Part shown: positions 26,762 to 40,601 of the stretch, in pieces
Numbering within the stretch: the stretch's first letter is position 1
Layout of the letters: each line of letters opens with the position of its first letter
Origin: Myxococcus sp.
GTDB lineage: Bacteria > Myxococcota > Myxococcia > Myxococcales > Myxococcaceae
Reading direction: 5' to 3'
NCBI GenBank assembly: GCA_014879945.1
Contig: JACSRE010000107.1
Span: 1-41,876 of the forward strand
Length of the DNA: 41,876 nt
The notes under the pieces: model-generated
Databases searched by the model: none
What the model saw: the letters and a program-made list of their open reading frames with translations, nothing else
What the model was told of the DNA's origin: nothing
Program-made: the position numbers and the translations under genes

Positions 26762-27201
26762 CACAGCATCTCCCAGAACATCGGCAGCCAGTCGACCATC
26801 ATGCGCAGGCTCAGCGCGTCGATGGCCGCGAGCAGCACCGAGGCCACCAGCGACGCGAACACCACCGCGAAGGTCGAGATGCGCGTCTCTTCCCACGTCG
26901 GCCAGGTCACCCGCTTGAGCTCGGTCGCGACCTCGAGCGCCAGCCCGTGAATGCGCTGGTTGGTCCAGCAGTAGGCGCCCGTGCCCACCGCCAGCAACAG
27001 GCCGATGAGGTACGGCGGCGTCGACAGGTCGAGCCCGGCCACCAGCTGCTTCTGGCCAATGCCCAGCTCGATGAAGAGCCGGGTGAGGATGTTGGCGAAG
27101 AAGAACGCCAGCACCAGGCCGATCAGCATGAACGAGATGACCACGAATCGCTTCGGGTCGATCTCGGCGCGGTTTGCTTGTTCGGAGGCCTCGGAAGCCA
27201 T
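26761..27201 (-). CDS. secE: Preprotein translocase subunit SecE
   Basis: SecE, 146 aa, part of the SecYEG channel. It has three hydrophobic spans (about residues 18-42, 60-80 and 108-130). The conserved cytosolic amphipathic segment before the last span (LALEVATELKRVTWPTWEET) is the essential core, including the TWPTWEET signature. The three-span form is like that of E. coli rather than the short single-span SecE of many bacteria. I use the ATG at 27201, which has AAGGTG just upstream; a TTG at 27213 is possible. Confidence 0.93.
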   Translation of the reverse strand: MASEASEQANRAEIDPKRFVVISFMLIGLVLAFFFANILTRLFIELGIGQKQLVAGLDLSTPPYLIGLLLAVGTGAYCWTNQRIHGLALEVATELKRVTWPTWEETRISTFAVVFASLVASVLLAAIDALSLRMMVDWLPMFWEML

Positions 27202-27274
27202 GCTCACCTTCAAACGATGACGAGAAGAACGCCGACGCCGCTCGCCGCGAGGGCGAAGGAGGCCGGTGAAAAGT

Positions 27275-27350
27275 TGGCAGGCCAGGAGGGATTCGAACCC
27301 CCAACAGGCGGTTTTGGAGACCGCTGCTCTACCATTGGAGCTACTGGCCT
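27275..27350 (-). tRNA. tRNA-Trp (CCA anticodon)
   Basis: A 76-base tRNA with a perfect 7-bp acceptor stem (AGGCCAG/CTGGCCT), anticodon CCA in the loop CTCCAAA, a TTCGAAT T-loop, discriminator G and an encoded 3' CCA. It lies between rpmG and secE, as in many bacteria. Confidence 0.97.
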
Positions 27351-27365
27351 ACGCGAATCGAAGAC

Positions 27366-27533
27366 TCAGCTGACCTTGCCTTCTTTGTGCCCAGTGTGCT
27401 TGCGGCACCGCGGGCAGAACTTGCTCATCTCGAGCTTGTCCTGCTGCTTCCGGCGGTTCTTGGTCGTGGTGTAGTTGCGCTCTTTGCACACCGTGCACTC
27501 GAGCGAGATCAGGCTGCGGTTGCCCTTGGGCAT
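27366..27533 (-). CDS. rpmG: 50S ribosomal protein L33
   Basis: L33, 55 aa, too short to stand out among longer overlapping frames. It begins [20 protein letters not shown] and has two Cys pairs (CTVC and CPRC), so it is the zinc-binding form; the [20 protein letters not shown] middle is typical of the family. Between tuf and tRNA-Trp, reading leftward, in the classical rpmG-secE-nusG arrangement. Confidence 0.95.
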
Positions 27534-27663
27534 TTGACAACTCCTTGAAGCTTAAGACGACAGAAGGGAAGGCCCTCTGACAGAGCCCCCCCTTCATGTC
27601 AAGCGGTGTGCGCTGGTGGCGCACCCCAGAGAAGCGAGCGCCTCTTCAGGCACCCGCAGGGCT
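27534..27663 (-). other. tuf-rpmG spacer with hairpins
   Basis: The 130-base gap contains, in the leftward direction, a GTGCGC/GCGCAC hairpin (27624-27608), then TTGACA (27602-27597) as a possible -35 without a convincing -10, then a long stem-like stretch (GAAGGG...CCCTTC). Possible roles are partial termination after tuf and a secondary promoter for rpmG onward. Confidence 0.3.
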
Positions 27664-28854
27664 TTAGGCGACGACTTCGGAGACGACGCCGGAGCCCACC
27701 GTACGGCCACCCTCGCGGATCGCGAAGCGGAGTTCCTTCTCCATCGCGACCGGCGTGATCAGCTCGACCTCGATGCCGATGTTGTCACCGGGCATCACCA
27801 TCTCGACGTCGTCGGGCAGCTTGACCGAGCCCGTCACGTCGGTGGTGCGGAAGTAGAACTGCGGGCGGTACCCCTTGAAGAACGGCGTGTGACGACCGCC
27901 CTCTTCCTTGGTGAGCACGTACACCTGCGCCTTGAACTTCGTGTGCGGGAGCACCGAGCCGGGCTTGGCGAGCACCTGGCCACGCTCGATCTCTTCGCGC
28001 TTGAGGCCACGAACGAGCGCGCCGATGTTGTCGCCGGCCATGCCTTCGTCGAGCAGCTTCTTGAACATCTCGACGCCGGTGACGACCGTCTTCGCCGTGG
28101 GGCGAATGCCGACGACCTCGACCTCTTCGCCGACGCGGACCTTGCCGCGCTCGACGCGGCCGGTGGCGACCGTGCCGCGGCCTTCGATCGAGAACACGTC
28201 TTCCACGGGCATGAGGAAGGGCTTCTCGGTCGCGCGCTGCGGGGTGGGAATGTACGAGTCCACCGCCTCCATCAGCTTGAGCACCGACTTCTCGCCGATG
28301 TCCGACTGATCGCCCTCGAGGGCCTTGAGCGCCGACCCGGGGATGATCGGGGTGGTGTCGCCGGGGAAGTCGTACTTCTTGAGCAGGTCACGCACCTCGA
28401 CCTCGACGAGCTCGCGGAGCTCGGGGTCGTCGAGCATGTCGACCTTGTTCAGGAAGACGACGATGTAGGGAACGCCGACCTGGCGGGCGAGCAGGATGTG
28501 CTCACGCGTCTGGGGCATCGGGCCGTCGGCCGCCGAGACCACGAGGATGGCGCCGTCCATCTGCGCGGCGCCCGTGATCATGTTCTTCACGTAGTCGGCG
28601 TGCCCGGGGCAGTCGACGTGCGCGTAGTGGCGGTTCGCGGTCTGGTACTCGACGTGGGCCGTCGAGATCGTGATGCCGCGGGCGCGCTCCTCGGGCGCCT
28701 TGTCGATCATGTCGTACGCGAGGAACGTGGCCCCACCGGTCTTCGCGAGCACCTTGGTGATCGCAGCGGTGAGCGTGGTCTTGCCGTGGTCGACGTGGCC
28801 GATGGTGCCGATGTTGACGTGCGGCTTGTTTCTTTCGAACTTCTCCTTCGACAT
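27664..28854 (-). CDS. tuf: Translation elongation factor Tu
   Basis: EF-Tu, 396 aa, which delivers aminoacyl-tRNA to the ribosome with GTP. The P-loop GHVDHGKTT (about 19-27), [18 protein letters not shown] and the domain 2 [12 protein letters not shown] are all present. It follows the Thr-Tyr-Gly-Thr tRNA cluster directly and is thus the tufB-type copy. Myxobacteria often carry a second tuf in the S10/str region; that would be outside this window. Confidence 0.99.
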
Positions 28855-28914
28855 GTTGCCCTTCCTTTGTGCGTGAAGATCGGTGGGTTCTGGCTACGAG
28901 ACTCGGACTTCAAA

Positions 28915-28990
28915 TGGAGCCCAGAACCGGGATTGAACCGGTGACCTCATCCTTACCAAGGATGTGCTCTACCAACTGAGCTATCTGGGC
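28915..28990 (-). tRNA. tRNA-Thr (GGT anticodon)
   Basis: A 76-base tRNA: acceptor GCCCAGA/TCTGGGC, anticodon GGT in the loop TTGGTAA, T-loop TTCAATC, discriminator T and encoded CCA. It is the last tRNA before tuf, as thrT is in E. coli. Confidence 0.96.
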
Positions 28991-28992
28991 AC

Positions 28993-29059
28993 TGCTTGCT
29001 GCGTCTGCTTGCTGCGTCTGCTTGCTGCGTCTGCTGTGCTGCGTCTGCTGTGCTGCGAC
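28993..29059. repeat. Short tandem repeat in tRNA spacer
   Basis: Five head-to-tail units: three exact copies of tgcttgctgcgtc (28993-29031) followed by two 14-base variants, tgctgtgctgcgtc and tgctgtgctgcgac (29032-29059). Further degenerate tgctgcgac-like pieces follow to about 29085. The array lies between tRNA-Thr(GGT) and tRNA-Gly inside the transcribed region. Confidence 0.9.
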
Positions 29060-29104
29060 CGCTGACTTCGTGCTGCGACTGCGCCTGCTACTTCGTTCTG
29101 ACTG

Positions 29105-29177
29105 AGCGGGGAACGGGATTCGAACCCGCGACATTCAGCTTGGAAGGCTGACGCTCTACCAGCTGAGCTATCCCCGC
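29105..29177 (-). tRNA. tRNA-Gly (TCC anticodon)
   Basis: A 73-base tRNA: acceptor GCGGGGA/TCCCCGC, anticodon TCC in the loop CTTCCAA, T-loop TTCGAAT, discriminator T; the 3' CCA is not encoded. Matches glyT in the E. coli cluster order. Confidence 0.96.
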
Positions 29178-29186
29178 GTGCTGGTG

Positions 29187-29270
29187 TGGAGGGGGGTGGA
29201 TTCGAACCACCGAAGGTCTGGGACCGACAGATTTACAGTCTGTTGCCGTTGGCCACTTGGCTACCCCTCC
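29187..29270 (-). tRNA. tRNA-Tyr (GTA anticodon)
   Basis: An 84-base class II tRNA with the long variable arm expected for Tyr: acceptor GGAGGGG/CCCCTCC, anticodon GTA in the loop CTGTAAA, T-loop TTCGAAT, discriminator A; CCA not encoded. Confidence 0.96.
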
Positions 29271-29305
29271 GAGCGAAGGCGTCATATTCAATTGTCTGCC
29301 CATCT

Positions 29306-29378
29306 GGCCGGCGGCGGGATTCGAACCCGCGACCTACTGATTACAAATCAGGTGCTCTACCAGCTGAGCTACACCGGC
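29306..29378 (-). tRNA. tRNA-Thr (TGT anticodon)
   Basis: A 73-base tRNA: acceptor GCCGGTG/CGCCGGC with one G-U pair, anticodon TGT in the loop TTTGTAA, T-loop TTCGAAT. Two oddities: bases 27 and 43 of the anticodon stem are C and U, a mismatch, and the discriminator reads C. CCA is not encoded. First gene of the cluster in transcription order. Confidence 0.93.
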
Positions 29379-29432
29379 AAGGCTCCAGAACTTCAAAGGA
29401 AACCCGCCACCCCGGGGCTGCGAGGGCGGCGC

Positions 29433-29462
29433 TCCTTATCCATGGGGGAAAGAGCAAGTCAA
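29433..29462 (-). promoter_or_regulatory. Candidate promoter of the tRNA-tuf operon
   Basis: Leftward TTGACT (29462-29457), one mismatch from the sigma-70 -35, with TAAGGA 18 bases on (29438-29433) as a poor -10, then a GC-rich stretch (GCGCCGCC) as seen at growth-rate-controlled stable-RNA promoters. It lies about 55 bases before the first tRNA. The weak -10 keeps confidence low. Confidence 0.35.
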
Positions 29463-29520
29463 GCGTTGATGAGACGAGCCTCGACTCTTGCCTCTGACGG
29501 GCGCTCTTTTGGGGGCCTTG

Positions 29521-30612
29521 CTACGAGCGCGGCTGACGACGGCGGGCGACCTCGGCGAGCAGCACGGCGGCCGAGACCGAGGCGTTGAGCGAGGCGACCT
29601 GGCCGATCATCGGAATGCGCACCAGGTAGTCACAGTGCTCGAGGATTCCGCGACGTACGCCCGCGCCCTCGGCGCCCACCACGATGGTGATCGGCCCGTC
29701 GAGCCGCGCCGTCCACAGGGTCTCTTCTCCCGTGGGCTCGGCGGCGACCGACCAGTAGCCCGCCGCCTTCAGCTCTTCGAGAGCGCGCGCGAGGTTGGTG
29801 ACGCGGGCGATCTTCGTGTGCGCGGTGGCGCCGGCCGAGGCCTTGGCGACGACGCCCGTCACCGCGGCGGCGCGATCTTTGGCGATCACGATGCCGTCGG
29901 CCCCCAGGGCGTGCGCCGAGCGGATGATCGCCCCGAGGTTCATCGGGTCTTGAATGCCGTCGAGCATCACGACCAGGCCAGGCCTGCCGTGCATGCGGGC
30001 CGCGGCCAGGATCTGCTCCAGCGTCGAGTAGTCGAACTGCCGCACCTCGGCGACGACGCCCTGGTGCACCGACTTGGGCGCCATCGCGTCGAGGCGCGCG
30101 CGGTCGACGCGGTCGACACGAATGCCGTGCGTGCTGGCGCGCTTGAAGATCTCACCGGCGATGGACTCCTTGAGGCCCTGCTCCTGAACGCTCAGGCGAT
30201 CGATCTGCCCGGGCTTCGCGCGGAGCAGCTCGAGCACGGGGTTGATGCCGTAGATGAAGCGATCGTCGCCGTACGCCCGCGGACCATCGGGGGCGGCCTC
30301 GCGCACGAAGGCCTCGGCGCGCCGGGCGGGGCGCTCGGTCGGCGTGCGATCGGCCTGCTCGAACGCGCGGGGTGGACGACGCTCGGCGCCGCGCCCTCCC
30401 CGGTCGTCGCGCCCGCGCCGCGAGTCGCCCTCTGGCTTGCGGCGCGCCCCGAAGGCCCCGTCGACCCGCTCGTAGGGCGCGCGCCTGGCGGGCGGGCCTG
30501 CTCGTTTCCCCAGCGGGCTGGAGCGCTTGTCTCCACCAGCTCGCTTGTCCCCACCGGGGCGCTTGCCGAAGCCGCCCTTCTTCTTCTCGCTGCCGGGGCC
30601 GAAGCGCTTCAA
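29521..30612 (-). CDS. rlmB: 23S rRNA (guanosine(2251)-2'-O)-methyltransferase
   Basis: A SpoU/TrmH-family methyltransferase of about 363 aa, longer than E. coli RlmB (243 aa) because of a basic, Gly/Arg/Lys-rich disordered N-terminus of over 100 residues. The enzyme core starts at FIYGINPVLELLRA; the substrate-binding domain is followed by the trefoil-knot motifs GIQDPMNLGAIIRSAHALGA, VVGAEGAGVRR and IPMIGQVASLNASVSAAVLL. The TTG at 30612 overlaps the upstream TGA (TTGA), in keeping with the coupling in this operon; the ATG at 30657 would overlap that gene by 49 bases. The related TrmH/RlmB members modify different RNAs; the C-terminal match is to RlmB. Confidence 0.9.
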   Translation of the reverse strand: MKRFGPGSEKKKGGFGKRPGGDKRAGGDKRSSPLGKRAGPPARRAPYERVDGAFGARRKPEGDSRRGRDDRGGRGAERRPPRAFEQADRTPTERPARRAEAFVREAAPDGPRAYGDDRFIYGINPVLELLRAKPGQIDRLSVQEQGLKESIAGEIFKRASTHGIRVDRVDRARLDAMAPKSVHQGVVAEVRQFDYSTLEQILAAARMHGRPGLVVMLDGIQDPMNLGAIIRSAHALGADGIVIAKDRAAAVTGVVAKASAGATAHTKIARVTNLARALEELKAAGYWSVAAEPTGEETLWTARLDGPITIVVGAEGAGVRRGILEHCDYLVRIPMIGQVASLNASVSAAVLLAEVARRRQPRS

Positions 30613-31046
30613 TTGATCACCACGGGGAACGAGAGCGACTTCGTCTGCCGCGCGCACACCTTCTCGGTGCAGATGAAGAACGTCATCTTCGCGTCGACCG
30701 TCGCCTTGCCCGGCGCCGCCGCCGTGAAGCCCACCTCGAAGCGCGGGTCAGGGTACGCCGCCGACCCTTCCGCCTTCTTCGTCAGCGAGTCCGCGAGGGT
30801 GAGCTTCTCTTTGTCGAGCTTGCTGTCCTTGCTCGACAGCTCGATGCGCAGCGGGGCCTCGTCAGAGACGTGCGCGCCGTTCTTCGCCTTGATCTCGATG
30901 ACGACCTTCCCCTTCTCGCCGGCCTTCACGGCGGAGGACGTGCCGTCCGTGCGCACCTCGTACAGAGAGGCCACGTCGGGGTCGGCCGCGTACGCGCCCG
31001 CCGCCGCCATCGACACCACCAGCATCAGCACTCGTCTCATGTTCAT
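30609..31046 (-). CDS. Secreted protein with Cys pair, DsbD N-domain-like
   Basis: A 145-aa protein with a Sec signal peptide (MRRVLMLVVSMAAAGAYA after a second in-frame Met) and a mature domain of beta strands. The ICTEKVCARQTKSLSFPV ending, with two Cys four apart, resembles the FCT...C stretch at the end of the DsbD N-terminal (immunoglobulin-like) domain, so a periplasmic thiol-disulfide role is possible but unproven. Its ATG overlaps the stop of the ATP-grasp gene (ATGA) and its stop overlaps the rlmB start. Confidence 0.75.
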   Translation of the reverse strand: MNMRRVLMLVVSMAAAGAYAADPDVASLYEVRTDGTSSAVKAGEKGKVVIEIKAKNGAHVSDEAPLRIELSSKDSKLDKEKLTLADSLTKKAEGSAAYPDPRFEVGFTAAAPGKATVDAKMTFFICTEKVCARQTKSLSFPVVIN

Positions 31047-31954
31047 GACTCTCCCACTTTCAAGGCGCTGCTTGGAACGGCACGCGCGGCGACGAGCTGC
31101 TCGCCCCGCTCGATGATCAGGCTGGCCAGGTTCAGCTCCGTCGCGAGCTCGAGCTCGGGCAGCGAGGGCGCGGCGTTGACGTCGGCGACGCGCGCCCAGC
31201 GGCCCTCGATCACGTCGACGGAGCAGACCTCGAGCGAGCACGCCCGCGCGGCCTTCTCGGCGAGCGCGCGGACCTCGTCTGAAGGCGTGCAGCGCTCGAG
31301 GCGATCGAACTGCCCCAGGTTCCGCGCGGCGCGGCCGGGGCGAGGCACGCGCTTGACCGCGGCGACGACCGAGCCGCCCACCACCAACAGCTGCAGATCG
31401 TGCTGGCCCGGGCGAATCGACTCCTGCATCACCACGTCGTGGCCGAGCCCGAGCACCGCCTCGAGGGCGGCCTCGAGCGACTGCATCGACTCGCAGAGCA
31501 TCACGCGGCGCTGCTCGCTCGCGGCCAGCAGCTTCACCACCACCGGCACCCCGCCCACCCGCGAGACGAGCGCCTTGAGGGCCTTGGCGTCGCGAGCCAG
31601 CACGGTGCGCGGCACCGGCACGCCGCGGCTGGCCAGGCGCTGGAGGCAGCGCAGCAGGTTTCGACTCACGCCGATGGCGTCGGCCTCGTTCAGGCTGAGG
31701 GCGCCTTGCGCCTCGAGCTGCTCCAGCATCGGCAGCGCGAACGCGGCCACGTTCGAGGCGAAGCGCGGAATGACGAGGTCCGGCGTGCGCATCAGCTTGT
31801 AGGCGCGCACCAGGCGCCCGGGCCGGGACCCGAGCTGGAGCTGCAACGAGGTCGGATCGATGCACCGCACATGGTGGCCACGCGCGCGCGCCGCTTCCAT
31901 CAACCGCCGGGTTGAGGCGATTCGACTCGACCGGGAGAGGACCACGACGCGCAT
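31043..31954 (-). CDS. RimK-like ATP-grasp protein with altered active site
   Basis: A 303-aa ATP-grasp protein related to RimK, which adds glutamates to ribosomal protein S6 in E. coli. The N-terminal MRVVVLSRSSRIASTRRLME, the VGGVPVVVKLL lysine (K141) and the terminal VADVNAAPSLPELE segment fit. Several residues differ from E. coli RimK as I remember it: the Gly-rich loop after K141 is AASEQRRV, the D-I-R of the binding site reads DLQ (186-188), and the metal Glu-x-Asn is D258-x-N260. It may therefore use another substrate or be weak. Starts at 31969 or 32023 are possible. First gene of a coupled trio with the Cys-pair protein and rlmB. Confidence 0.8.
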   Translation of the reverse strand: MRVVVLSRSSRIASTRRLMEAARARGHHVRCIDPTSLQLQLGSRPGRLVRAYKLMRTPDLVIPRFASNVAAFALPMLEQLEAQGALSLNEADAIGVSRNLLRCLQRLASRGVPVPRTVLARDAKALKALVSRVGGVPVVVKLLAASEQRRVMLCESMQSLEAALEAVLGLGHDVVMQESIRPGQHDLQLLVVGGSVVAAVKRVPRPGRAARNLGQFDRLERCTPSDEVRALAEKAARACSLEVCSVDVIEGRWARVADVNAAPSLPELELATELNLASLIIERGEQLVAARAVPSSALKVGES

Positions 31955-32033
31955 TCGCTGCTGACCCATACACGCTTGCGACGGCACCCGGCTCACGGAA
32001 TTTTGGGCGCTTCGCCGCGCCACGCCCGCGCGC

Positions 32034-32051
32034 TGTCAGCCCGAATGACAG
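32034..32051. promoter_or_regulatory. Small inverted repeat in divergent promoter region
   Basis: CTGTCA and TGACAG around a 6-base spacer in the 211-base region between the ATP-grasp gene and the first CglB-like gene. Could be an operator; 6-bp arms are near chance level. Confidence 0.2.
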
Positions 32052-32165
32052 TGGAGCGCCGACGAACCATCTGGATTCACTGAACTTCGGACGGGTGTGG
32101 GCCTTGCGCCCGCGCGCGCGTGGCCCGCACACTGAACGCTCCCTGCCCATCCTCACGGAGGCCCC

Positions 32166-33320
32166 ATGCGCCGAACGATCTTCCTCGCAACCCTCAGCGC
32201 CCTGTCGTGTCAGTCCTACCAATTCGAGCCGGTGGCGCCCGTCACCCTCGTGGTGAGTGACGAGGTCTTCGAGCTGGCCCCGGTGCTCAAGCCCAACGTG
32301 ATGCTCGCGGTCGATCGCTCTGGCTCCATGGGCGGGCAGCTCGACGCCGCGTGCTCGAGCACCTGCCCCACGCGCCTGAGCGAGCTGAAGCAGGCGGTCG
32401 CGTCGTTCACCGCGCTGGCCGACGACCGGGTGCGCCTGGGCCTCACCACCTTTCCGCGCGAGCCGGGGCCGACCCTGACGGGCGCCGAGGCCTCGTGTCA
32501 GCCGGCCAACGACGTCAGGGTCGCGCTCCCGGTCGCCTCGCGGGTCGACGATCAGCAGGCCAGTCAGGCCAACCGCGCGAGCGCCAGTCAGGTCAACGCC
32601 GCGGTCCAGGCGCTCCAGGCCGCCGGTGGCACCCCGACCGGCGCCACCCTCGCGTTCCTGGGCACGCGCAGCGAGCTCCGCGCGTCGGACTTCCGCAACG
32701 ACTTCGTCCTGCTCCTCACCGACGGGCTGCCCAACTGCAACGAGAACAACCCGAACGACTTCATGCAGAGCGCGAGCGCCTGTCGCTGCCAGACCGGGGG
32801 CGGAGACTGCAGCGGCAACGACGTTCGCCGACGCGGCTGCCTCGACGCCGACGCGACCGTCGAGCAGGTGCAGGCCCTCCACCGGCTCGGCATCAAGACG
32901 ATCGTCGTCGGCTTCGGCGCCGACACCAACCAGGTCGACGCCCGCGCGGTGCTCGAGCAGCTCGCGCGCGCCGGCGGGGTTCCGCGCACCTGCGCTTCCG
33001 ACGGAGACTGCGGGGCGGGGTCGGCCTGCACTTCGGGGCGCTGCGATCGATGGGCCTTCCAGGCCTCGAACCGCGTCGAGCTCGAGCAGGTGCTCACCAC
33101 GGTGCTGAGCGGCCTCACGCCCGCGACCTGCACCCGCGCGCTCCCCGATCGCCCCTTCACCAGCGGCGCGGTGAGCCTGCTGGTCGACGGCGCGCGGGTG
33201 GCGCGGGGACCCGAGACGTGGTCGCTGTCTGACGATCAACGCAGCGTGACGCTCGCGCCGGCGTTCTGCGAGGCGAACCACGGCGCGCAGCTGCACCTCC
33301 GGGTGGCCGGTTCCCCTTGA
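32166..33320 (+). CDS. CglB-like VWA-domain lipoprotein, copy 1
   Basis: A 384-aa exported protein with one VWA domain. The signal ends at C15 (SALSC), followed by QSYQFEPVAPVTL; the lipobox is not perfect. The metal-ion (MIDAS) residues are present: DRSGS at 50-54, T156 in GGTPTG and D186 in LLLTDGLPN. A Cys-rich insert and further Cys toward the C-terminus suggest several disulfides. The organisation matches CglB, the outer-membrane VWA lipoprotein that acts in focal-adhesion gliding in Myxococcus xanthus. GGAGG lies 4-5 bases before the start. Copy 2 follows 51 bases on; copy 1 is the more divergent. Confidence 0.85.
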   Translation: MRRTIFLATLSALSCQSYQFEPVAPVTLVVSDEVFELAPVLKPNVMLAVDRSGSMGGQLDAACSSTCPTRLSELKQAVASFTALADDRVRLGLTTFPREPGPTLTGAEASCQPANDVRVALPVASRVDDQQASQANRASASQVNAAVQALQAAGGTPTGATLAFLGTRSELRASDFRNDFVLLLTDGLPNCNENNPNDFMQSASACRCQTGGGDCSGNDVRRRGCLDADATVEQVQALHRLGIKTIVVGFGADTNQVDARAVLEQLARAGGVPRTCASDGDCGAGSACTSGRCDRWAFQASNRVELEQVLTTVLSGLTPATCTRALPDRPFTSGAVSLLVDGARVARGPETWSLSDDQRSVTLAPAFCEANHGAQLHLRVAGSP

Positions 33321-33371
33321 GCCCCACCGCAACCTGAGCGACGCTGCGCCCCGCCTTCTCTTGAGGAACCC

Positions 33372-34592
33372 ATGACGCGATACCTCGCCTCCGCCCTGCT
33401 CTTCGCGACCGCCTGCCAGACGTATGACTTCGAGCCGGTGACGCCCATCGCGATCTCGCAGACGACGCAGACGCGCAACGTCGTCGCCCGAAACCTCAAG
33501 CCCAACCTGATGATCCTCGTCGACAAGTCGGGGTCGATGAACGCGCCGCTCAACGCGAGCATGCCCTCGTGTGGCATGTGCAGCGGCGCGAGCTGCCCGG
33601 CGACGTGCCCCACGCGCATCAGCGAGCTGCGCACGGCGATGAACCAGTTCCTCACCACCTCGTCCACCGTGGCCCGCATGGGGCTGGCGTTCTTCCCCAA
33701 GGGCGAAGACACCACCTTCAGCCCGACCGGGTGTGCGCCCACGCGGGAGATCGCCGTCGACCTGCCCGCCCCGTCCACCAGCGACACCGACACCGCCCCG
33801 CTGGTCATGAACGCCACCACGGTGAACCAGCGCATCCAGTCGCTGGGCTCGGCGATCCCCGTCACCGGCGGCACGCCCACTGCGGGCGCGCTCACCTTCC
33901 TCGGCTCCTACGCGGGGCTCCTCGACGACCGCGACAACCGGCAGGACTTCGTGCTCCTCCTCACCGACGGTCTGCCCAACTGCAACCCGGCCAACCCGCT
34001 GTCGTGCAGCTCGATGCCCCCGCCGCCTTCGAACCTGTGCACCCTCGGCAACAACTGCGTGGGGCAGTACTGCCGCGCCGGCTTCCTCGACAAGGACGGC
34101 GTGGTGACGGCGGTGCAGCAGCTGCGCTCGCGCAACGTCAGCACCATCGTGGTCGGCTTCGGCGCCGACTTCGCCAGCCCCGAGGCGCTCGACGTGCTCA
34201 ACTCCATGGCCGACGTGGGCGGCTTCGGCCGCAAGTGCCCCAACGGCACCAACGCGGAGTGCGGCAGCAACAACACCTGCCTGGCCACCAAGTTCTGCCA
34301 GAAGCAGTTCTACGCCGCGGCGAACGCGACCGAGCTGGCGACGGCGCTGGCAGACATTCAGAACCTCATCGGCAGCGGAGACCCCTGCCTCTTCAGCCTC
34401 TCTGACAAGCCCACCGACGACCGCTTCCTCGCAGTGATCATCAACGGGCAGACGACCACCAAGGGCCCCAACACCTGGTCGTTGCTCCCAACCGGCGCGG
34501 TGCAGTTCGCCGGGCCGCTGTGCGATCGCGTGAAGACCTCGACCACCGCCGAGCCCCTCAAGGTCGAGTTCCGAATCGTCAGCACGCTCTGA
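33372..34592 (+). CDS. cglB: CglB-like VWA-domain lipoprotein, copy 2
   Basis: A 406-aa protein that best fits CglB. After the signal peptide (lipidated Cys expected at C15 in FATACQTYDFEPVTPIAISQ) comes a VWA domain with intact MIDAS residues: DKSGS at 51-55, T168 in GGTPTAG and D199 in LLLTDGLPN. The Cys-rich stretches CGMCSGASCPATCP and CTLGNNCVGQYCRAG point to disulfide-stabilised loops. In M. xanthus CglB is a surface-exposed, integrin-like adhesin that joins the Glt gliding complex to the substrate. Here GAGG lies just upstream of the start. Whether this or copy 1 is the functional CglB cannot be decided. Confidence 0.87.
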   Translation: MTRYLASALLFATACQTYDFEPVTPIAISQTTQTRNVVARNLKPNLMILVDKSGSMNAPLNASMPSCGMCSGASCPATCPTRISELRTAMNQFLTTSSTVARMGLAFFPKGEDTTFSPTGCAPTREIAVDLPAPSTSDTDTAPLVMNATTVNQRIQSLGSAIPVTGGTPTAGALTFLGSYAGLLDDRDNRQDFVLLLTDGLPNCNPANPLSCSSMPPPPSNLCTLGNNCVGQYCRAGFLDKDGVVTAVQQLRSRNVSTIVVGFGADFASPEALDVLNSMADVGGFGRKCPNGTNAECGSNNTCLATKFCQKQFYAAANATELATALADIQNLIGSGDPCLFSLSDKPTDDRFLAVIINGQTTTKGPNTWSLLPTGAVQFAGPLCDRVKTSTTAEPLKVEFRIVSTL

Positions 34593-34601
34593 GCGGCGCG
34601 C

Positions 34602-34997
34602 TCAGAACGACAACAGCCGCGCGCTCGTCGTCAGCTTCCAGATGTCGGGCAGGCCAGCCACCTCGTCGAGGTGGCGCTCGTGCAGCAACTCCACCGGGTC
34701 GAGGCCGCACAGCTTGACGGTGGTGTCACACGCCATCAACCGCGCCCCCAACTGCCTGGCGTCTTCCAACATGCGCGCCGGCAGCGGCGCCCCCAGGCCC
34801 TGGCCTCGCGTCGCGGCCGACGACTCCCGCTCGGTCAGCGGCTTGCCGAAGGTGCCGCGGGCGAGCGCGCGCAGGGCGTCGAAGGCGAAGACGTAGATCA
34901 CCTCGTCGCCCATGGCCGTCGCGGTGAGGCCCAGCGAGGTGGCCTGCCAGGCGGCTTCGTAGCCGGCGTTCGACATGAAGATCATCAGGCGAGACAT
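34602..34997 (-). CDS. DsrE/DsrF-like family protein
   Basis: A 131-aa cytosolic protein of DsrE type. MSRLMIFMSNAGYEAAWQAT begins the Rossmann-like core, with GDEVIYVFAFDAL as the second strand, then a basic linker and LEDARQLGARLMACDTTVKL as the third, with two Cys (C90 and C97 in KLCGLD). DsrE-like proteins carry sulfur or bind small sulfur compounds, but many copies outside sulfur operons have unknown roles. The longer frame to 35258 is not used because the homology starts here. It is convergent with copy 2 of the CglB-like genes. Confidence 0.8.
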   Translation of the reverse strand: MSRLMIFMSNAGYEAAWQATSLGLTATAMGDEVIYVFAFDALRALARGTFGKPLTERESSAATRGQGLGAPLPARMLEDARQLGARLMACDTTVKLCGLDPVELLHERHLDEVAGLPDIWKLTTSARLLSF

Positions 34998-35126
34998 GGG
35001 CGGGCGACTGTACCCGAGCCGGGCGCCAGAGAGCGCATCACGTCCACGCAAGGCGGGGGCTGAGGTAGGCTCCTCGAGAGCCCTGTCGTCACGGCCCCGG
35101 CCGGGGGCCCCGGAGTCACCCCGCGC

Positions 35127-35699
35127 ATGTTTCCCTCTCGCCGCGCCACCGTGTTCGTCGTCGTCGCCCTTGCGCTCGCGCCCCTTACGGCGCTCGCCAC
35201 CGTGGTGATGGCCTTGTCGCTGGAAGAGCTGACCGAGCGCGCGCCCGTGGTGGTGCACGGAACGGTGCGGCGCTCGGTGACGGGCTGGGCCGAGGGCAAG
35301 CGCGGCATCTGGACGTGGACCGAGATCGCGGTGCGTGAGTCGCTCAAGGGCGCGCCGCGCACCACGGCGTTGGTGAAACAGCCTGGCGGCGTCCTCGACG
35401 GCGTCGGCCAGCGCGTCTCGGGCGCCGGCCGCTTCGAAGAGGGCGAAGAGGTGGTGCTCTTCCTCGAGCCGGCCGTCGATGAGCCGAACGCCTTCGTGCT
35501 GCTGGCCATGGCCGCGGGCAAGGTGACGCTCGAGGGCACCGTCGGCCCGAAGGTCGCGCGCCGCGACTTGAAGGGCCTGAGCTTCGCCCAGCGCGGCGGA
35601 AAAGGGGTCGCCGGGCCCGTCGCCGAGCGAGAGACCCTTGGCACCGCCGAGGCCTTCCTCGCCCGGGTGCGCGCTGCGGCGAAGGGAGCGACGAAGTGA
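35127..35699 (+). CDS. Exported protein coupled to metalloprotease
   Basis: A 190-aa protein with a Sec signal peptide (FVVVALALAPLTALA). The mature part begins MALSLEELTERAPVVVHGTV and goes on to strand-rich segments such as WTWTEIAVRESLKG and FEEGEEVVLFLEP, typical of a small beta-sandwich domain; similar short exported proteins precede MYXO-CTERM proteases in other myxobacteria (my recollection). Its stop overlaps the protease GTG by GTGA. Function unknown; the coupling suggests it helps or travels with the protease. Confidence 0.8.
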   Translation: MFPSRRATVFVVVALALAPLTALATVVMALSLEELTERAPVVVHGTVRRSVTGWAEGKRGIWTWTEIAVRESLKGAPRTTALVKQPGGVLDGVGQRVSGAGRFEEGEEVVLFLEPAVDEPNAFVLLAMAAGKVTLEGTVGPKVARRDLKGLSFAQRGGKGVAGPVAERETLGTAEAFLARVRAAAKGATK

Positions 35700-37996
35700 A
35701 GCACCTCCTCGTCACCACCCTCCTCCTGGCGACCGCCGCGCTCGCCGACCCCAGCGGCAACCGCTGGCTGCTGAGCCCCTGCACCACCAGCTGCACGCTC
35801 CAGTCGGGCATGGCGAACGGGAACCAGGTCTGCCGCAGCGGGCGCTGCCTGCCCGAGGTGCGCTTCGCCGCGTCGATCGACAACACCGGCGGCACCCAGC
35901 TGCCGGGCATGCAGCAGATCACCTACGGCTCGGTGCTGGCGACGATGCGCACCGCCTTCGAGCGGTGGACGCTCTCGAACACCTCGTGCTCGCCGTCGAT
36001 CGCGTTCGCCTACGAGTCGCCGAACTTCAGCACCCCGCAGGGCGCGCTCGCGGTCAACATCACCGACGACAACAACAACGTCATCTGGCTCTCGGGGCTC
36101 AACTGGCGCTACTCCAGCGCCACGCTCGGGCTCACCACCAACACCTGGTACGTGGTGGGCGAGCTGAGCGACTCGGACATGGAGATGAACGCCGCCACCG
36201 TCACCTGGGGCGCGGGCACGACGATCTCCTCGGGTGACTACGACTACGAGAGCGTCGTCACCCACGAGGCGGGCCACTTCATCGGCTTCGCGCACTCCGC
36301 CAACTCGGTGGCGGTGATGTTCGCCAACATCGGCACCGGCGAGATCAAGCGCAACCTCGCGCCTCCCGACATCGCCGACGTGTGCGCCGTGTACCCCGGC
36401 ACCACCGGGAGCCAGGGCTCGCCCTGCACCGGCACCTGCTCGGCCAGCCTGGTCTGCGAAGGCGCGTCGGGGAGCAGCAGCCGCATCTGCACGCGCGACT
36501 GCACGCGGGTGGGAGACGCCTGCCCCACCGGCTTCAGCTGCCAGGCTTCGACCAACGGCTTCGCGTGCCTCCCGCAGATCGGCGCGCCCGACATGTGCAA
36601 GTTCTGTACGGCAGGCCAGGACTGCTCCACCGGCCAGTGCCTCACCGACGGCAACGGGCGCAACTGGTGCTCGATGGCCTGCAACCCGACCGTCAGCGGC
36701 CAGTGCGGCACGGGCTTTACCTGCACCACCACGCCCGTCGGCAGCTACTGCTTCCCCACCTCGGCCTGCACCAACCAGTGCACCCCCCAGAACGTCGCCA
36801 CCAACTGCGCGCCCGGCTACCAGTGCACCGGCGGCACCTGCGTGCCCACCGGCAACACCGGCGATCGCTGCGAGGTGTCGGAGTTCTGCAACGCCTGCAA
36901 CGCCTGCGCGACCGACGAGGCGAACGCGCAGATCGCCTTCTGCCGGGCCTGCTGCAATGGTGGCGCGCCGCTGTGCATGGGCTGCTCGACGAACACCTGC
37001 AGCCCGGTGGGCGGCGCGATGACGCAGTGCCTGCCGATCAACGGCCGCAACGAGCAGCTGTGCTACCCCAGCGGCGGCTCCGCGACGTGCCAGGCCTGCA
37101 GCGCCGCGATGCCGTGCGCCGGCGGTGCCCAATGCCTGGGCGGCGTGTGTCGCGCCAGCTGCAACCCCGCCAGCCCCGGCTCGTGCCCGGCCTGCCTGCC
37201 GACGGTGAACGGGGGCATCTGCGCCTGCGGCGCTACCGAGATCAGCGACGCCAACCAGCCGTGCAGCAGCGCCGGCACGATGCTGGCCATCTGCCGCAAC
37301 GGGCTCTCGTGCATCAGCAACTTCTGCCGTCGCCAGTGCACCATCAGCAACCCGACGTCGTGCCCGACGGGCACCACCTGCCAGCTGAGCAGCGGCCAGG
37401 AGGTCTGCATTCCAGGGAACGCGGGCATGCAGTGCGCGACGTGCCGGAGCGACGGCCAGTGCGAAGCGGGCCTCGTCTGCTACTCGAACCGCTGCTACCC
37501 GCCGTGCACGACGACGCTGCCCAACCAGTGCGCGACGTGCGTGCAGGTGCAGCCTGATCCACCGCAGGGCAGCGGCGCGGGGGTGTGCGCCTGCCCTGAT
37601 CAGGTCGTCGGGCCCGGGGCGAGCTGCCTGCTGCCGAACATCGCGAGCTGTCAGCCGGGCACCCGCTGCATCAGCGGGGTGTGCCAGGGCCGCTGCGACC
37701 CGTCGAACCCGCAGACCTGCCCCTCGGGCCACGTGTGCACCGCGCTGGCGAACGACTTCTATTGCACCGTCGACAACAGCGGCCAGGGCGGTGGGAGCTC
37801 CGGGACGGGCGGCGGCGGCACCAGCGGAGGGCGCGCCACCGGTGGCGGCTTCGTCGCTGCGGGAGGCGCGGCCGGCGGCACCGTGACGGTGAACAACATG
37901 GGCTGCACCTGCCAGGGCGGCGGCGGGGGGCTGCTGGCGGCGCTCGCGGCGCTGCTCTTCTCGACGCGGGCTCGGCGCGGCGCTCGGCGGAGCTGA
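35696..37996 (+). CDS. Matrixin-like metalloprotease with Cys-rich repeats and MYXO-CTERM-like tail
   Basis: A 766-aa surface protein. The GTG start overlaps the upstream TGA (GTGA). After a signal peptide (HLLVTTLLLATAALA) the catalytic domain carries the zinc motif HEAGHFIGFAH at 190-200, with the nearby VAVMFANIG as a possible Met-turn. From about 225 to 690 come many Cys-rich modules (such as CTGTCSASLVC and CVPTGNTGDRC), then a Gly/Ser-rich linker. The C-terminus (about 735-766) is GCTCQ followed by a Gly-rich hydrophobic stretch and RARRGARRS, matching the MYXO-CTERM sorting pattern. Substrate unknown; predation and matrix turnover are the obvious candidates. Confidence 0.9.
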   Translation: MKHLLVTTLLLATAALADPSGNRWLLSPCTTSCTLQSGMANGNQVCRSGRCLPEVRFAASIDNTGGTQLPGMQQITYGSVLATMRTAFERWTLSNTSCSPSIAFAYESPNFSTPQGALAVNITDDNNNVIWLSGLNWRYSSATLGLTTNTWYVVGELSDSDMEMNAATVTWGAGTTISSGDYDYESVVTHEAGHFIGFAHSANSVAVMFANIGTGEIKRNLAPPDIADVCAVYPGTTGSQGSPCTGTCSASLVCEGASGSSSRICTRDCTRVGDACPTGFSCQASTNGFACLPQIGAPDMCKFCTAGQDCSTGQCLTDGNGRNWCSMACNPTVSGQCGTGFTCTTTPVGSYCFPTSACTNQCTPQNVATNCAPGYQCTGGTCVPTGNTGDRCEVSEFCNACNACATDEANAQIAFCRACCNGGAPLCMGCSTNTCSPVGGAMTQCLPINGRNEQLCYPSGGSATCQACSAAMPCAGGAQCLGGVCRASCNPASPGSCPACLPTVNGGICACGATEISDANQPCSSAGTMLAICRNGLSCISNFCRRQCTISNPTSCPTGTTCQLSSGQEVCIPGNAGMQCATCRSDGQCEAGLVCYSNRCYPPCTTTLPNQCATCVQVQPDPPQGSGAGVCACPDQVVGPGASCLLPNIASCQPGTRCISGVCQGRCDPSNPQTCPSGHVCTALANDFYCTVDNSGQGGGSSGTGGGGTSGGRATGGGFVAAGGAAGGTVTVNNMGCTCQGGGGGLLAALAALLFSTRARRGARRS

Positions 37997-38068
37997 TCGG
38001 TGAGGCCCGGGGGACGACGGTCGACCGGCGGCCGTTCACGCGGCCACGACGCCCGTCGTCACCATGCG

Positions 38069-38452
38069 ATGCCTCGAGCCGTGATGAGCCGCCTGGGCGG
38101 GCTGGCCGCGGTCTCGATCCTCGTGGCGGCGCCGGCGAGGGCCGACAGCTGGTGGGGCGCTGACAAGGCGCTCCACGTCAGCCTCAGCGCAGGGCTCGCC
38201 CTCGGCGCGACCGCGGTGAGCGCGGCGTGGATTGAGGGGCCGCTCGAACGCGCCGCGGTGGGCGCGGCCGCCAGCTTCACCCTGGGGGTGCTGAAGGAGG
38301 TCGCCGACGGGCTGGGCCTGGGTGCGCCGTCGCTGCGAGACCTGACGTGGAACCTGATCGGCGCCGTGGTGGGCGCGACGGCGGCGTGGGCGGTCGAGCG
38401 GTGGCTCGTCGGCCCGCTGCTCGAGGCGTTGGCGCCCCGCTTCGCTGGCTAG
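38069..38452 (+). CDS. YfiM-like small exported protein
   Basis: A 127-aa protein with a signal peptide (VMSRLGGLAAVSILVAAPARA, cut after ARA) and a mature part with WWGADKALHVSLSAGLALGA, a possible membrane helix, a GVLKEVADGLG segment and a DLTWNLIGAVVGATAAW helix. The D-K-x-LH...KE..D...D..N pattern is that of YfiM/DUF2279 proteins, whose role is unknown. Starts at 38069 or 38084 are both possible. Its TAG stop and that of the convergent lipoprotein gene share the palindrome CTAG (38449-38452). Confidence 0.7.
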   Translation: MPRAVMSRLGGLAAVSILVAAPARADSWWGADKALHVSLSAGLALGATAVSAAWIEGPLERAAVGAAASFTLGVLKEVADGLGLGAPSLRDLTWNLIGAVVGATAAWAVERWLVGPLLEALAPRFAG

Positions 38453-39231
38453 AGCGGATCCTCTTCGGTCGGAGTGACGGGCTTCTCATCGTCACTGGGC
38501 ACGGGAGCGTCCCTCTGAGCCGCGCGCACCGCCGGCGACAGATCGAGGGCGATCTGGTGCGCGATCGCCTGCAGCATCGTCTTGAGGCGGTTCGAGAAGA
38601 CGGCCGGGTGCTTGGCGACCTCGAAGGGATCGAGCCCCTCCAGTCCGGCGCGCAGCTCGTCGCTGAAGAAGGCCCGGCGATAGAGCACGCCTCCACCGAC
38701 CCGGTAGAGCTGCGCGTACCCGTAGAGGTAGACGCCCGCCTTCCCGCCCTTGCTCCGCAGGCCGTAGTCCTCGACGACGATCTCGATGATCGAGTCGACG
38801 CCCAGCGGCGCCAGCCGCGAGACGTCGGGCGCGTTGGCCGGCACCTCGTCGACGAGGAACGACTCGAGCAGCGAGGCCACCTGGGTGGGCCGGGCCAGCC
38901 GCGTCCACGGGGCTGAGTTGGGGAGCTCGGCCACCACGTGCGCGCGCAGGGTGTCGGCGACCTGGTACCGGTTGATGGAGCGCTCCGAGTCGGTGCCCTT
39001 CTCGAGCTTCAGGGTGAGCCGGCGGTCGGCCTCTTTGGCGTCGAGCTTCTTGAGGCGCCCGGCGTAGCTGGCCGCGTCGTCGCGGAAGACCACCGACCTC
39101 GGCCCCGCGCCCTCTTCGATGCGCGCGATGAAGGCGGGCCTGTTGAGCGAGTCGAGCGCCTCGGGCGACAAGGGCGTGTGGGCACAGCCGACGGCCACCA
39201 GGGCGACGACGAACACGAGCGTGCTGCGCAT
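38449..39231 (-). CDS. Lipoprotein of unknown function
   Basis: A 260-aa protein with a clear lipoprotein signal (FVVALVAVGC, Cys at 16). The mature part has mixed helix and strand; the DSIIEIVVEDYGLRSKGGKA and GYAQLYRVGGGVLYRRAF segments resemble the beta-rich region of outer-membrane-associated lipoproteins, followed by an acidic C-terminal tail (DDEKPVTPTEEDPL). No family recognised. It is divergent from the phosphoesterase-like lipoprotein gene (90 bp apart) and convergent with the YfiM-like gene. Confidence 0.8.
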   Translation of the reverse strand: MRSTLVFVVALVAVGCAHTPLSPEALDSLNRPAFIARIEEGAGPRSVVFRDDAASYAGRLKKLDAKEADRRLTLKLEKGTDSERSINRYQVADTLRAHVVAELPNSAPWTRLARPTQVASLLESFLVDEVPANAPDVSRLAPLGVDSIIEIVVEDYGLRSKGGKAGVYLYGYAQLYRVGGGVLYRRAFFSDELRAGLEGLDPFEVAKHPAVFSNRLKTMLQAIAHQIALDLSPAVRAAQRDAPVPSDDEKPVTPTEEDPL

Positions 39232-39321
39232 GGTCGACGGTCTACCGCGAACCTGCTGGACCGGCGAGTCCGTTTCCGCTAACTCCGCGCAGCTTTTCAC
39301 ACTTTCACGAGGGGACTTCTC

Positions 39322-40455
39322 ATGTTCAGCCGGCTGTCGAAGGCAACGGTGGTGCTCACGAGCGCGCTGGCGCTCACGGCCTGCCCCGAGAAGAAGACCG
39401 AGGCGCCCAAGCCTCCCGAGCCGCCGAAGGTGGCGGTGCCCGCAGTGCCGCCCGCCACGCCCAAGCCGCCGAGCGAGCGCGCCGAGAAGGAGTGCGCCGC
39501 GCCCATCGACCCCGGCCCCACCGCCGAGGTGAAGATCGGCGAGCGCGCCGCGAGCCTCTCGGGTGCCCACCTGACGTTCACCGACAAAGACACCGACGGC
39601 ACGCTCACCCTGGGCATCGTCGGCCCGGTGAACGAGGACTCGGGCGAGAACATGCTGGCGCTCAAGCGCTACGCGAAGTTCTTCCAGGACGAGAAGGTCG
39701 ACGCCATCGTCGTCACCGGCGACGTCGGCGACATCGCCGCGGGCATCACGCGGGTGCTCAAGGAGCTGGCGGCCACCAAGGTGCCGGTGCTCGCGCTCGC
39801 CGGCAACCAGGAGTGCCGCGCCGAGTTCACCGACGGTGTCGCCATGGCCCAGAAAGAGGCCTCGAACATCGTCAACATGAACGCCGTGCGGGTGGTCGAG
39901 TTCCCCGAGCTGATGCTGGTCTCGCTGCCCGGCTACCACGACGCCAACTACGTCAAGTGCAGCACCGGCTGCCGGTACTTCCAGACCACCCTCGACGAGG
40001 TGGTGCGTGAGGCGAAGACCTCGAAGGTGCCGGTGGCCCTGGTCGCCCACGGCCCTCCCCGCGGCAGCGGCAACCAGGCCCTCGACTTCGCGGGCGCGGC
40101 CGGCAACGTCGGCGACGAGGCCATCACCCAGGCGATCGCCGAGGCGAAGATCAGCTTCGGGTTTGCTTCGAACATCAAAGAGGCCGGCGGGCGCGCCACC
40201 GCAGACGCCGCGGGCACCACCCTGGTGAAGGAGAGCGCCGACTCGAGCACCCTCTTCATCAACCCCGGCCCCGCCGACACCTTCGGTTGGGAGATGAACG
40301 ACGGCACCAAGAGCGTCGGCATGGCCGCCGTCTTCAAGCTCAAGGGCACCACGGCGCAGTGGAAGTCGTTCCGCATGAAGCCGCTGTCGGGCGCTGAGAA
40401 GGCCGAGGCCAAGAAGCTCGCGCCGCCCGCGCGCGCCGCCGCCGAGAACAAGTAA
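39322..40455 (+). CDS. Metallophosphoesterase-like lipoprotein, metal ligands altered
   Basis: A 377-aa lipoprotein (lipobox LTAC, C21) with a Pro/Lys-rich linker and a calcineurin-like phosphoesterase fold. GDVGD at 133-137 fits the GDxxD metal motif, but the first DxH motif is replaced (LGIVGPVNE), the GNH(E/D) motif reads GNQE (161-164), and the later His is in AHGPPRG (H243). With one whole motif and one His missing, catalysis is doubtful or metal use differs. GAGGGG lies 9 bases before the start. An intrinsic terminator follows. The C-terminus is Lys/Ala-rich. Confidence 0.75.
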   Translation: MFSRLSKATVVLTSALALTACPEKKTEAPKPPEPPKVAVPAVPPATPKPPSERAEKECAAPIDPGPTAEVKIGERAASLSGAHLTFTDKDTDGTLTLGIVGPVNEDSGENMLALKRYAKFFQDEKVDAIVVTGDVGDIAAGITRVLKELAATKVPVLALAGNQECRAEFTDGVAMAQKEASNIVNMNAVRVVEFPELMLVSLPGYHDANYVKCSTGCRYFQTTLDEVVREAKTSKVPVALVAHGPPRGSGNQALDFAGAAGNVGDEAITQAIAEAKISFGFASNIKEAGGRATADAAGTTLVKESADSSTLFINPGPADTFGWEMNDGTKSVGMAAVFKLKGTTAQWKSFRMKPLSGAEKAEAKKLAPPARAAAENK

Positions 40456-40477
40456 CCCTCGGCGCGTCGCAGCACAG

Positions 40478-40513
40478 GCGCCGGCCCCCGCCTGGGAGCC
40501 GGCGCTCTTCTTT
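40478..40513 (+). terminator. Intrinsic terminator
   Basis: GCGCCGGC (40478-40485) pairs perfectly with GCCGGCGC (40498-40505) and is followed by TCTTCTTT. It lies 23 bases past the stop of the phosphoesterase-like gene. Confidence 0.8.
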
Positions 40514-40601
40514 CAGCCCCGGTTCCGCTCCTGGCCGAAGATTCTAGCCTCGCCACCCAGCGGGTGCTTGCCGCCGCCCTGTCGGCTGGTACCGTGGATG
40601 G

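Follow-up and report, generated by a model that had tools for sequence, protein, structure and literature searches.

Two neighbouring CglB-class lipoprotein genes at the cglB locus of a Myxococcus sp., one of them probably an older and faster-evolving branch of the family

In Myxococcus xanthus the gliding adhesin CglB is described as a lipoprotein of the cell surface: it co-purifies with Glt components of the outer membrane, becomes unmasked at focal adhesions and attaches to the substratum (PMC12288465; PMC13104615). The MIDAS model is restated in a 2025 paper (PMC12282271). An earlier study from 2011, as far as its available text goes, confined CglB to Myxococcales except Anaeromyxobacter (PMC3169522). 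In the window studied here, i.e., the whole 41,876-nt stretch of DNA that makes up a single contig (JACSRE010000107.1) of the 7.72-Mb, 448-contig genome of Myxococcus sp. (GCA_014879945.1), two genes of the CglB type, hereafter A and B, stand side by side on one strand. A sequence-only reading had interpreted them as the products of an old tandem duplication, whereas M. xanthus is described with a single cglB. How are the two genes related, and could A serve as a second adhesin beside B? The ligand of CglB, and the way in which one adhesin serves many surfaces, are to our knowledge open questions.

Both reading frames were open and co-oriented, and the positions, the gap and the family scores bore out the two VWA lipoproteins 51 bases apart that had been proposed from the letters (Table 1). 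The genes are directly established, and so is their membership of the family: both scored above the curated cut-off (200 bits) of NCBIfam NF033757 (gliding_CglB equivalog), a cut-off that is by itself not decisive because C372, a long-branch paralogue elsewhere in the same genome, passed it with 215 bits. In Pfam, A was above the cut-offs of both VWA and VWA_2, and B was at the VWA_2 cut-off and below that of VWA. The two proteins were 36% identical over 376 columns (BLASTP, E 3e-64). Besides this pair, the window's genome (G000) was found to hold three dispersed CglB-like genes, i.e., C304 (L141, 158 bits), C213 (L140, 175 bits) and the above C372 (L139); the first two grouped with B and the last was placed on a long branch.

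The orthology of the locus is likewise directly established. In M. xanthus AM003 (L030), cglB, which we take to be the gene tagged MXAN_3060, has a DsrE-like gene on one side and a RimK-like gene on the other, with genes for a small protein and a TrmH-like methyltransferase coming next. The RimK-like and DsrE-like neighbours of A and B are the same, and the order is TrmH-Thio-RimK-[cglB]-DsrE. With respect to these neighbours, cglB has the opposite orientation in the window's genus and in several related genera, and the same orientation in Myxococcus-type genomes. The CglB-like nature attributed to the two genes from the letters thus has the support of both the family scores and the locus, and the single cglB of M. 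xanthus was also recovered, with one family match in the whole genome of AM003 at E <= 1e-5.

Some side observations were made around the locus. A 190-aa ORF without a Pfam match and a gene for a Cys-rich matrixin-like protease (35127-37996) adjoin the DsrE-like gene and recur at many fetched loci. In many draft genomes the distance from the start of the cglB match to a contig end is often 3.0-3.2 kb; assemblies may be broken there by repeats, for which the EF-Tu and tRNA genes close by are candidates. An Rfam search of positions 27000-41876 returned five tRNAs and nothing else. A cglB locus of the Myxococcus type was also present in a record titled Comamonas sp. KCTC 72670 (L029, BNCN01000003.1), which is probably mislabelled or contaminated.

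Table 1. Features of the cglB locus in the window (positions count from the first letter of the window)
Feature	Position	Strand	Score or basis
RimK-like gene of the ATP-grasp type, conserved left neighbour	31043..32023	-	
Conserved non-coding stretch upstream of A, with dyad TGTCA-N7-TGACA (32034-32050)	32034..32106	+	
Gene A: CglB-family VWA lipoprotein, 384 aa, faster-evolving paralogue	32166..33320	+	NF033757 305.8 bits
A: lipoprotein signal to putative lipidated Cys15 (MRRTIFLATLSALSC)	32166..32210	+	sequence; Cys15 invariant in family alignment
A: MIDAS DxSxS (D50, S52, S54)	32313..32327	+	invariant columns
A-B intergenic gap, 51 nt stop to start	33321..33371	+	range 49-66 nt (five genomes of the genus)
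Gene B: canonical CglB of the genus, 406 aa	33372..34592	+	NF033757 432.3 bits
B: lipoprotein signal to putative lipidated Cys15 (MTRYLASALLFATAC)	33372..33416	+	sequence; Cys15 invariant in family alignment
B: MIDAS DxSxS (D51, S53, S55)	33522..33536	+	invariant columns
DsrE-like gene, conserved right neighbour	34602..34997	-	Pfam DrsE_2 23.2, just below cut-off 25

The shared start and the shared MIDAS, both pointed out in the sequence-only reading, were present in the two proteins. The mature N-termini, for which lipidation is predicted, read CQSYQFEPV in A and CQTYDFEPV in B, and in the alignment of 32 family members the positions C15, Q16, Y18 and V23 were invariant and F20 and E21 nearly so, with P22 variable. 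The remaining MIDAS residues (T156/T158 and D186 in A; T168/T170 and D199 in B) also fell in columns that were invariant among the 32 aligned members. The Cys-rich regions, said to be shared as well, were common only in part. There are 15 Cys in A and 17 in B; A is without the two Cys that stand after the MIDAS in B (C67 and C70), and B is without those of A at C206 and C225. The loss after the MIDAS is not special to A, because the same state, with two Cys only after the MIDAS, was found at the cglB locus in the B copies of two other genomes of the genus (G001 and G003) and in two genomes with one copy there (L057 and L122). The cysteine pattern accompanies CglB without defining it, and it varies within the family.

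In other genera, 122 columns reach a consensus of 75% or more; A agrees with it at 92 of them and departs at 30, and B agrees at 112 and departs at 10. In A, the loop after DxSxS and the C-terminal tail are shortened, with loss of the short post-MIDAS stretch carrying two Cys and of a C-terminal STxxP stretch; the latter could be the part that docks to Glt. Predicted models reached pLDDT values of 81.4 (A) and 84.4 (B), with much of residues 201-224 of A poorly predicted. In Foldseek searches with both models, SpaC, PitA, integrin beta and TRAP were matched over the VWA part, with query-length TM-scores of about 0.4. The VWA of B aligned to 4fx5 with a Z of 19.7 (rmsd 2.3, 183 aligned). VWA chains of TFIIH were tied with the adhesin matches for B (Z 19.2), so the fold shows a VWA and is no proof of adhesion. 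When the sequence of B was compared with those of solved structures, no VWA relative was obtained, and the single match had an E of 0.29.

The descent of the two genes was examined in maximum-likelihood trees with hand-chosen rows, i.e., a quick tree of 84 rows and a careful tree of 58 rows after removal of 26 long, redundant, outgroup or partial rows, the outgroup being three hand-chosen proteins of the same order. In the quick tree, and against this chosen outgroup, A and B were both inside the clade that holds M. xanthus CglB, and not outside it as VWA lipoproteins of a merely similar type would be. The B copies of the genus grouped with the dispersed paralogues C304 and C213 (100/99). For this genus B is the standard CglB, with the slower evolution, and it is orthologous to CglB of M. 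xanthus. The five A copies formed one clade (100/100) on a stem of 1.24. The nearest neighbour of A was the first copy of G015, a genome of another genus (g10), with a support of only 58/7; both have NPND(F/Y) before the CxC stretch. With such a long stem and such support for the neighbour, the exact place of A in the tree and its origin can be given only tentatively.

Judging from these comparisons, A probably represents a separate, older CglB branch and not one that arose recently from B. Two adjacent genes on the same strand would also be expected if B had simply been duplicated in tandem within the genus, with fast divergence of A afterwards, and local pairs do occur in other genera. However, AU tests, which were run after the first tree had been seen and in which A is a long branch, rejected the grouping of A with the five paired B copies (p 0.0036) and with all seven B copies (p 0.0057). 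The widest grouping, with B plus C304 and C213, was borderline (p 0.047), and long branches can mislead trees. Moreover, A keeps the Cys of GCLD that is general in the family; in its place stands F or Y in all seven B copies of the genus and Y in C304 and C213. The AU rejections and this Cys state together argue that A was not duplicated from B inside the genus, and such an origin is considered improbable. The best matches of A beyond the genus were three copies of g16 (43-46% in the matched stretch), which were as good as the B copy of G005 (39%). The old tandem duplication of the sequence-only reading can be retained as far as the age of the pair is concerned, but a simple duplication of one gene from the other is not supported. 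Misbinning was dismissed as an origin of A because A adjoins B on one contig in five genomes; the GC3 values were 0.92 for A and 0.96 for B.

The genomes of the genus are drafts, and conservation of each copy in its orthologous position was found for B in all seven and for A, as a whole gene with an open frame, in five of them. No A was found at E <= 1e-57 in G001 and G003. In G003 the contig starts inside A, and the segment NKNLPFCDANLGGTLSVQVASSP-stop just upstream of B resembles the tail of A. In G001 the copy that adjoins RimK is B-like, and upstream of it a 39-nt stretch matched the region of the A stop in the window at 28 of 39 positions, ungapped; none of 2000 mononucleotide shuffles reached this value (maximum 25), and the best of 12 other one-copy loci gave 22. 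This stretch is probably the scar of a deletion, although it is short, could in part be a conserved element before B and comes from a draft assembly. Given the truncated A in G003 and the probable scar in G001, A is most likely ancestral to the genus; it seems dispensable in G001, where it was not found.

Pairwise dN/dS was estimated from five of the seven genomes, with 10 pairs per gene. The identity of A ranged from 68 to 90% with dN/dS of 0.20-0.34, and that of B from 80 to 88% with dN/dS of 0.13-0.24, values that are rough because dS was 0.3-1.1. Conservation and selection are directly established for both genes, and A and B are both under purifying selection. In nine of the 10 pairs A was less alike than B, with a dN 1.5 to 2.4 times that of B. 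The exception was the pair G002-G004 (L018/L016), with 90% identity and dS of 0.30 in A versus 83% and 0.67 in B; recombination or transfer of A is a possible cause of this reversal. A might be taken for a decaying duplicate without function, given its mostly higher rate of change compared with B and the failure to find it in G001. This explanation was rejected as very improbable on the dN/dS values, well under 1 in all 10 pairs, and on the intact frames, open in all five whole copies, with the MIDAS also intact.

A scan for promoters and terminators gave no promoter-like site and, in the gap between A and B, no terminator-like site. As no such site was found in the gap, we infer that the pair is probably co-transcribed. 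Upstream of A, 48 of the 71 positions from 32036 to 32106 (67.6%) were identical across all five genomes. In the same comparison, the 50-nt bins at the two ends of the stretch had 38% and 28% identity, and the coding regions of A and B 52% and 61%; the best 71-nt windows within A and B exceeded the upstream stretch, with 79% and 85%. The dyad stood at the same place in all five genomes. The core pattern of the stretch was recovered in 17 of 190 fetched loci, all of them overlapping copies of the five A-bearing places, and once in its own genome at up to 2 mismatches. Neither the dyad nor the core pattern was found upstream of B in G001. The stretch is probably a cis-element that serves either the A-B operon or the divergently oriented RimK gene. 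No regulator was matched to the dyad with its N7 spacing. A minus-strand coding region, considered by eye for the same stretch, was dropped because the changes were not confined to third positions.

In the family as a whole, 94 of the 96 genomes had a family match above the cut-off. Adjacent cglB pairs, as counted from matches at E <= 1e-58, were present in 13 of the 96 genomes and in seven genera, namely in the window's genus, g1 (G000, G002, G004, G005 and G006), and in g6 (G011 and G107), g10 (G015), g13 (G018), g16 (G047 and G048), g18 (G023) and g36 (G078). At the same threshold there was no adjacent pair among 27 genomes of g38 or 16 of g33, in which second copies were far apart or on separate contigs. 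Both flanks of the pair were recovered in g1, g6 and g16, the RimK side only in g13, and the DsrE side only in g10, g18 and g36. For g18 and g36, the start of the contig is close to the pair. The available DNA of g10 does extend on the other side of the pair, but no RimK, small-protein or TrmH gene was recovered there. In the careful tree the two copies were sisters in g13 (100/99), g36 (100/98) and g18 (99/90; open in the quick tree), the g16 pair was inside the g16 clade (100/99), and the g6 pair formed a clade with one copy of g35 (100/99). The pairings in these five other genera look lineage-specific and separate from that of g1, with the caveat that gene conversion could make old pairs of other genera appear recent. 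In one genome with GltC (G064, one contig of 9.4 Mb) no CglB match was obtained at E <= 1e-5, and a search for the locus gave a distant RimK-like gene only; real loss and a missing segment are indistinguishable in this case.

The distribution bears on the heteromeric partnership suggested in the sequence-only reading. Two co-oriented neighbours with a short gap could form an obligate heteromeric adhesin unit, and each of A and B is without Cys that the other keeps, which is a hint only. However, G001 has, as far as visible, B but no A, 83 of the 96 family genomes have no adjacent pair (some contigs are cut there), and the odd cysteines of A and of B probably pair within each chain. An obligate unit of this kind has a low probability.

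The gliding machinery on which such adhesins would be carried is directly established in the window's genome with respect to GltE (573 bits, cut-off 225) and GltC (912 bits, cut-off 450). A second, weaker GltC-like gene scored 226 bits. Among the 14 genomes examined, GltE was above its cut-off in 13 and GltC in all. An ORF of 1242 aa beside GltE, with counterparts beside GltE in M. xanthus and in G089, is presumably GltD by gene order, and two OMP_myx_plus beta-barrel ORFs adjoin GltC. As a side observation, G109 (2.3 Mb) had CglB at 311 bits and GltC at 827 bits, and its GltE match reached just 44 bits.

Since the start, the MIDAS and the locus of A are as in CglB, the most likely reading takes A and B as neighbouring outer-membrane lipoprotein adhesins of the CglB class, probably transcribed together, with A as a second adhesin borne by Glt; this reading is adopted only tentatively. 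B would be loaded on the outer-membrane Glt module and would grip the substratum via its MIDAS when the Agl/Glt focal adhesion forms, a role into which it fits in the comparisons made here. A would be an older CglB lineage retained beside B, with its lipoprotein start and complete MIDAS kept, and could be carried on the same Glt platform, alone or beside B, with a different grip on surfaces. For A, we infer the surface exposure, the shared platform and the altered ligand.

On the other hand, A may have left gliding altogether and could act as a VWA surface lipoprotein in cell-cell or prey adhesion or in a second Glt-like complex, with B alone serving gliding. The divergence of A with its loss of conserved C-terminal residues points in this direction, as does the failure to find A in G001, and the weaker GltC-like gene together with the dispersed CglB-like genes makes paralogues for other roles plausible. 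As the change in the loop is not special to A, the tentative preference for a second Glt-borne adhesin was slightly lowered and a role of A outside gliding slightly raised. Moreover, according to the available text of the 2011 study, the duplicated Glt clusters of M. xanthus cannot replace those used in gliding (PMC3169522), which favours a new role for duplicates and counts against the reading of A as a second Glt-borne adhesin. However, in five genomes A remains beside B across a gap of 49-66 nt, its score is still that of a CglB equivalog and the mature N-terminus and the MIDAS are retained, and its departure from gliding is considered rather unlikely.

The word 'paralog' was absent from the available text of that 2011 study, whose passages with 'duplicat' concern Glt/Agl clusters (PMC3169522). 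A literature search, as far as it reached, found no paper title on paired cglB genes; this is not a claim that such pairs are unpublished. Natural pairs in which the MIDAS is kept and other parts are changed are ready-made swaps for complementation of M. xanthus. The repetition of pairing in seven genera suggests selection on the number or range of adhesins, which is not visible in a model organism with a single copy. A bolder proposal, doubtful at present, is that gliding adhesins have arisen repeatedly at the cglB locus and that A, an old second lineage in one operon with B, would be a fast-evolving 'grip' subunit, so that one Glt motor would carry two adhesins of differing surface or prey specificity, switched by the conserved element upstream of A.

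In comparison with known systems, the two genes are closest to CglB of M. xanthus, with which they have in common the family score, a mature start of the CQTYDFEPV type, the VWA with its MIDAS and the same neighbours; M. xanthus AM003 differs in having one copy, whereas here a second, divergent copy precedes B and both are inverted relative to the neighbours. The adjacent pairs of g6, g10, g13, g16, g18 and g36 are similar in that two CglB-family genes share a strand and have one or both of the conserved neighbours beside them, but in five of these six genera both copies share one clade, unlike A of the window's genus, which does not group with its B. A VWA with a MIDAS is also found in the integrin beta headpiece, Plasmodium TRAP, the pilus adhesins SpaC and PitA and Bdellovibrio Bd0875, according to the structure matches and PMC11003981. 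Those MIDAS adhesins have other anchors and machines, with no sequence relation shown, and the likeness to the CglB pair lies in the VWA and its MIDAS.
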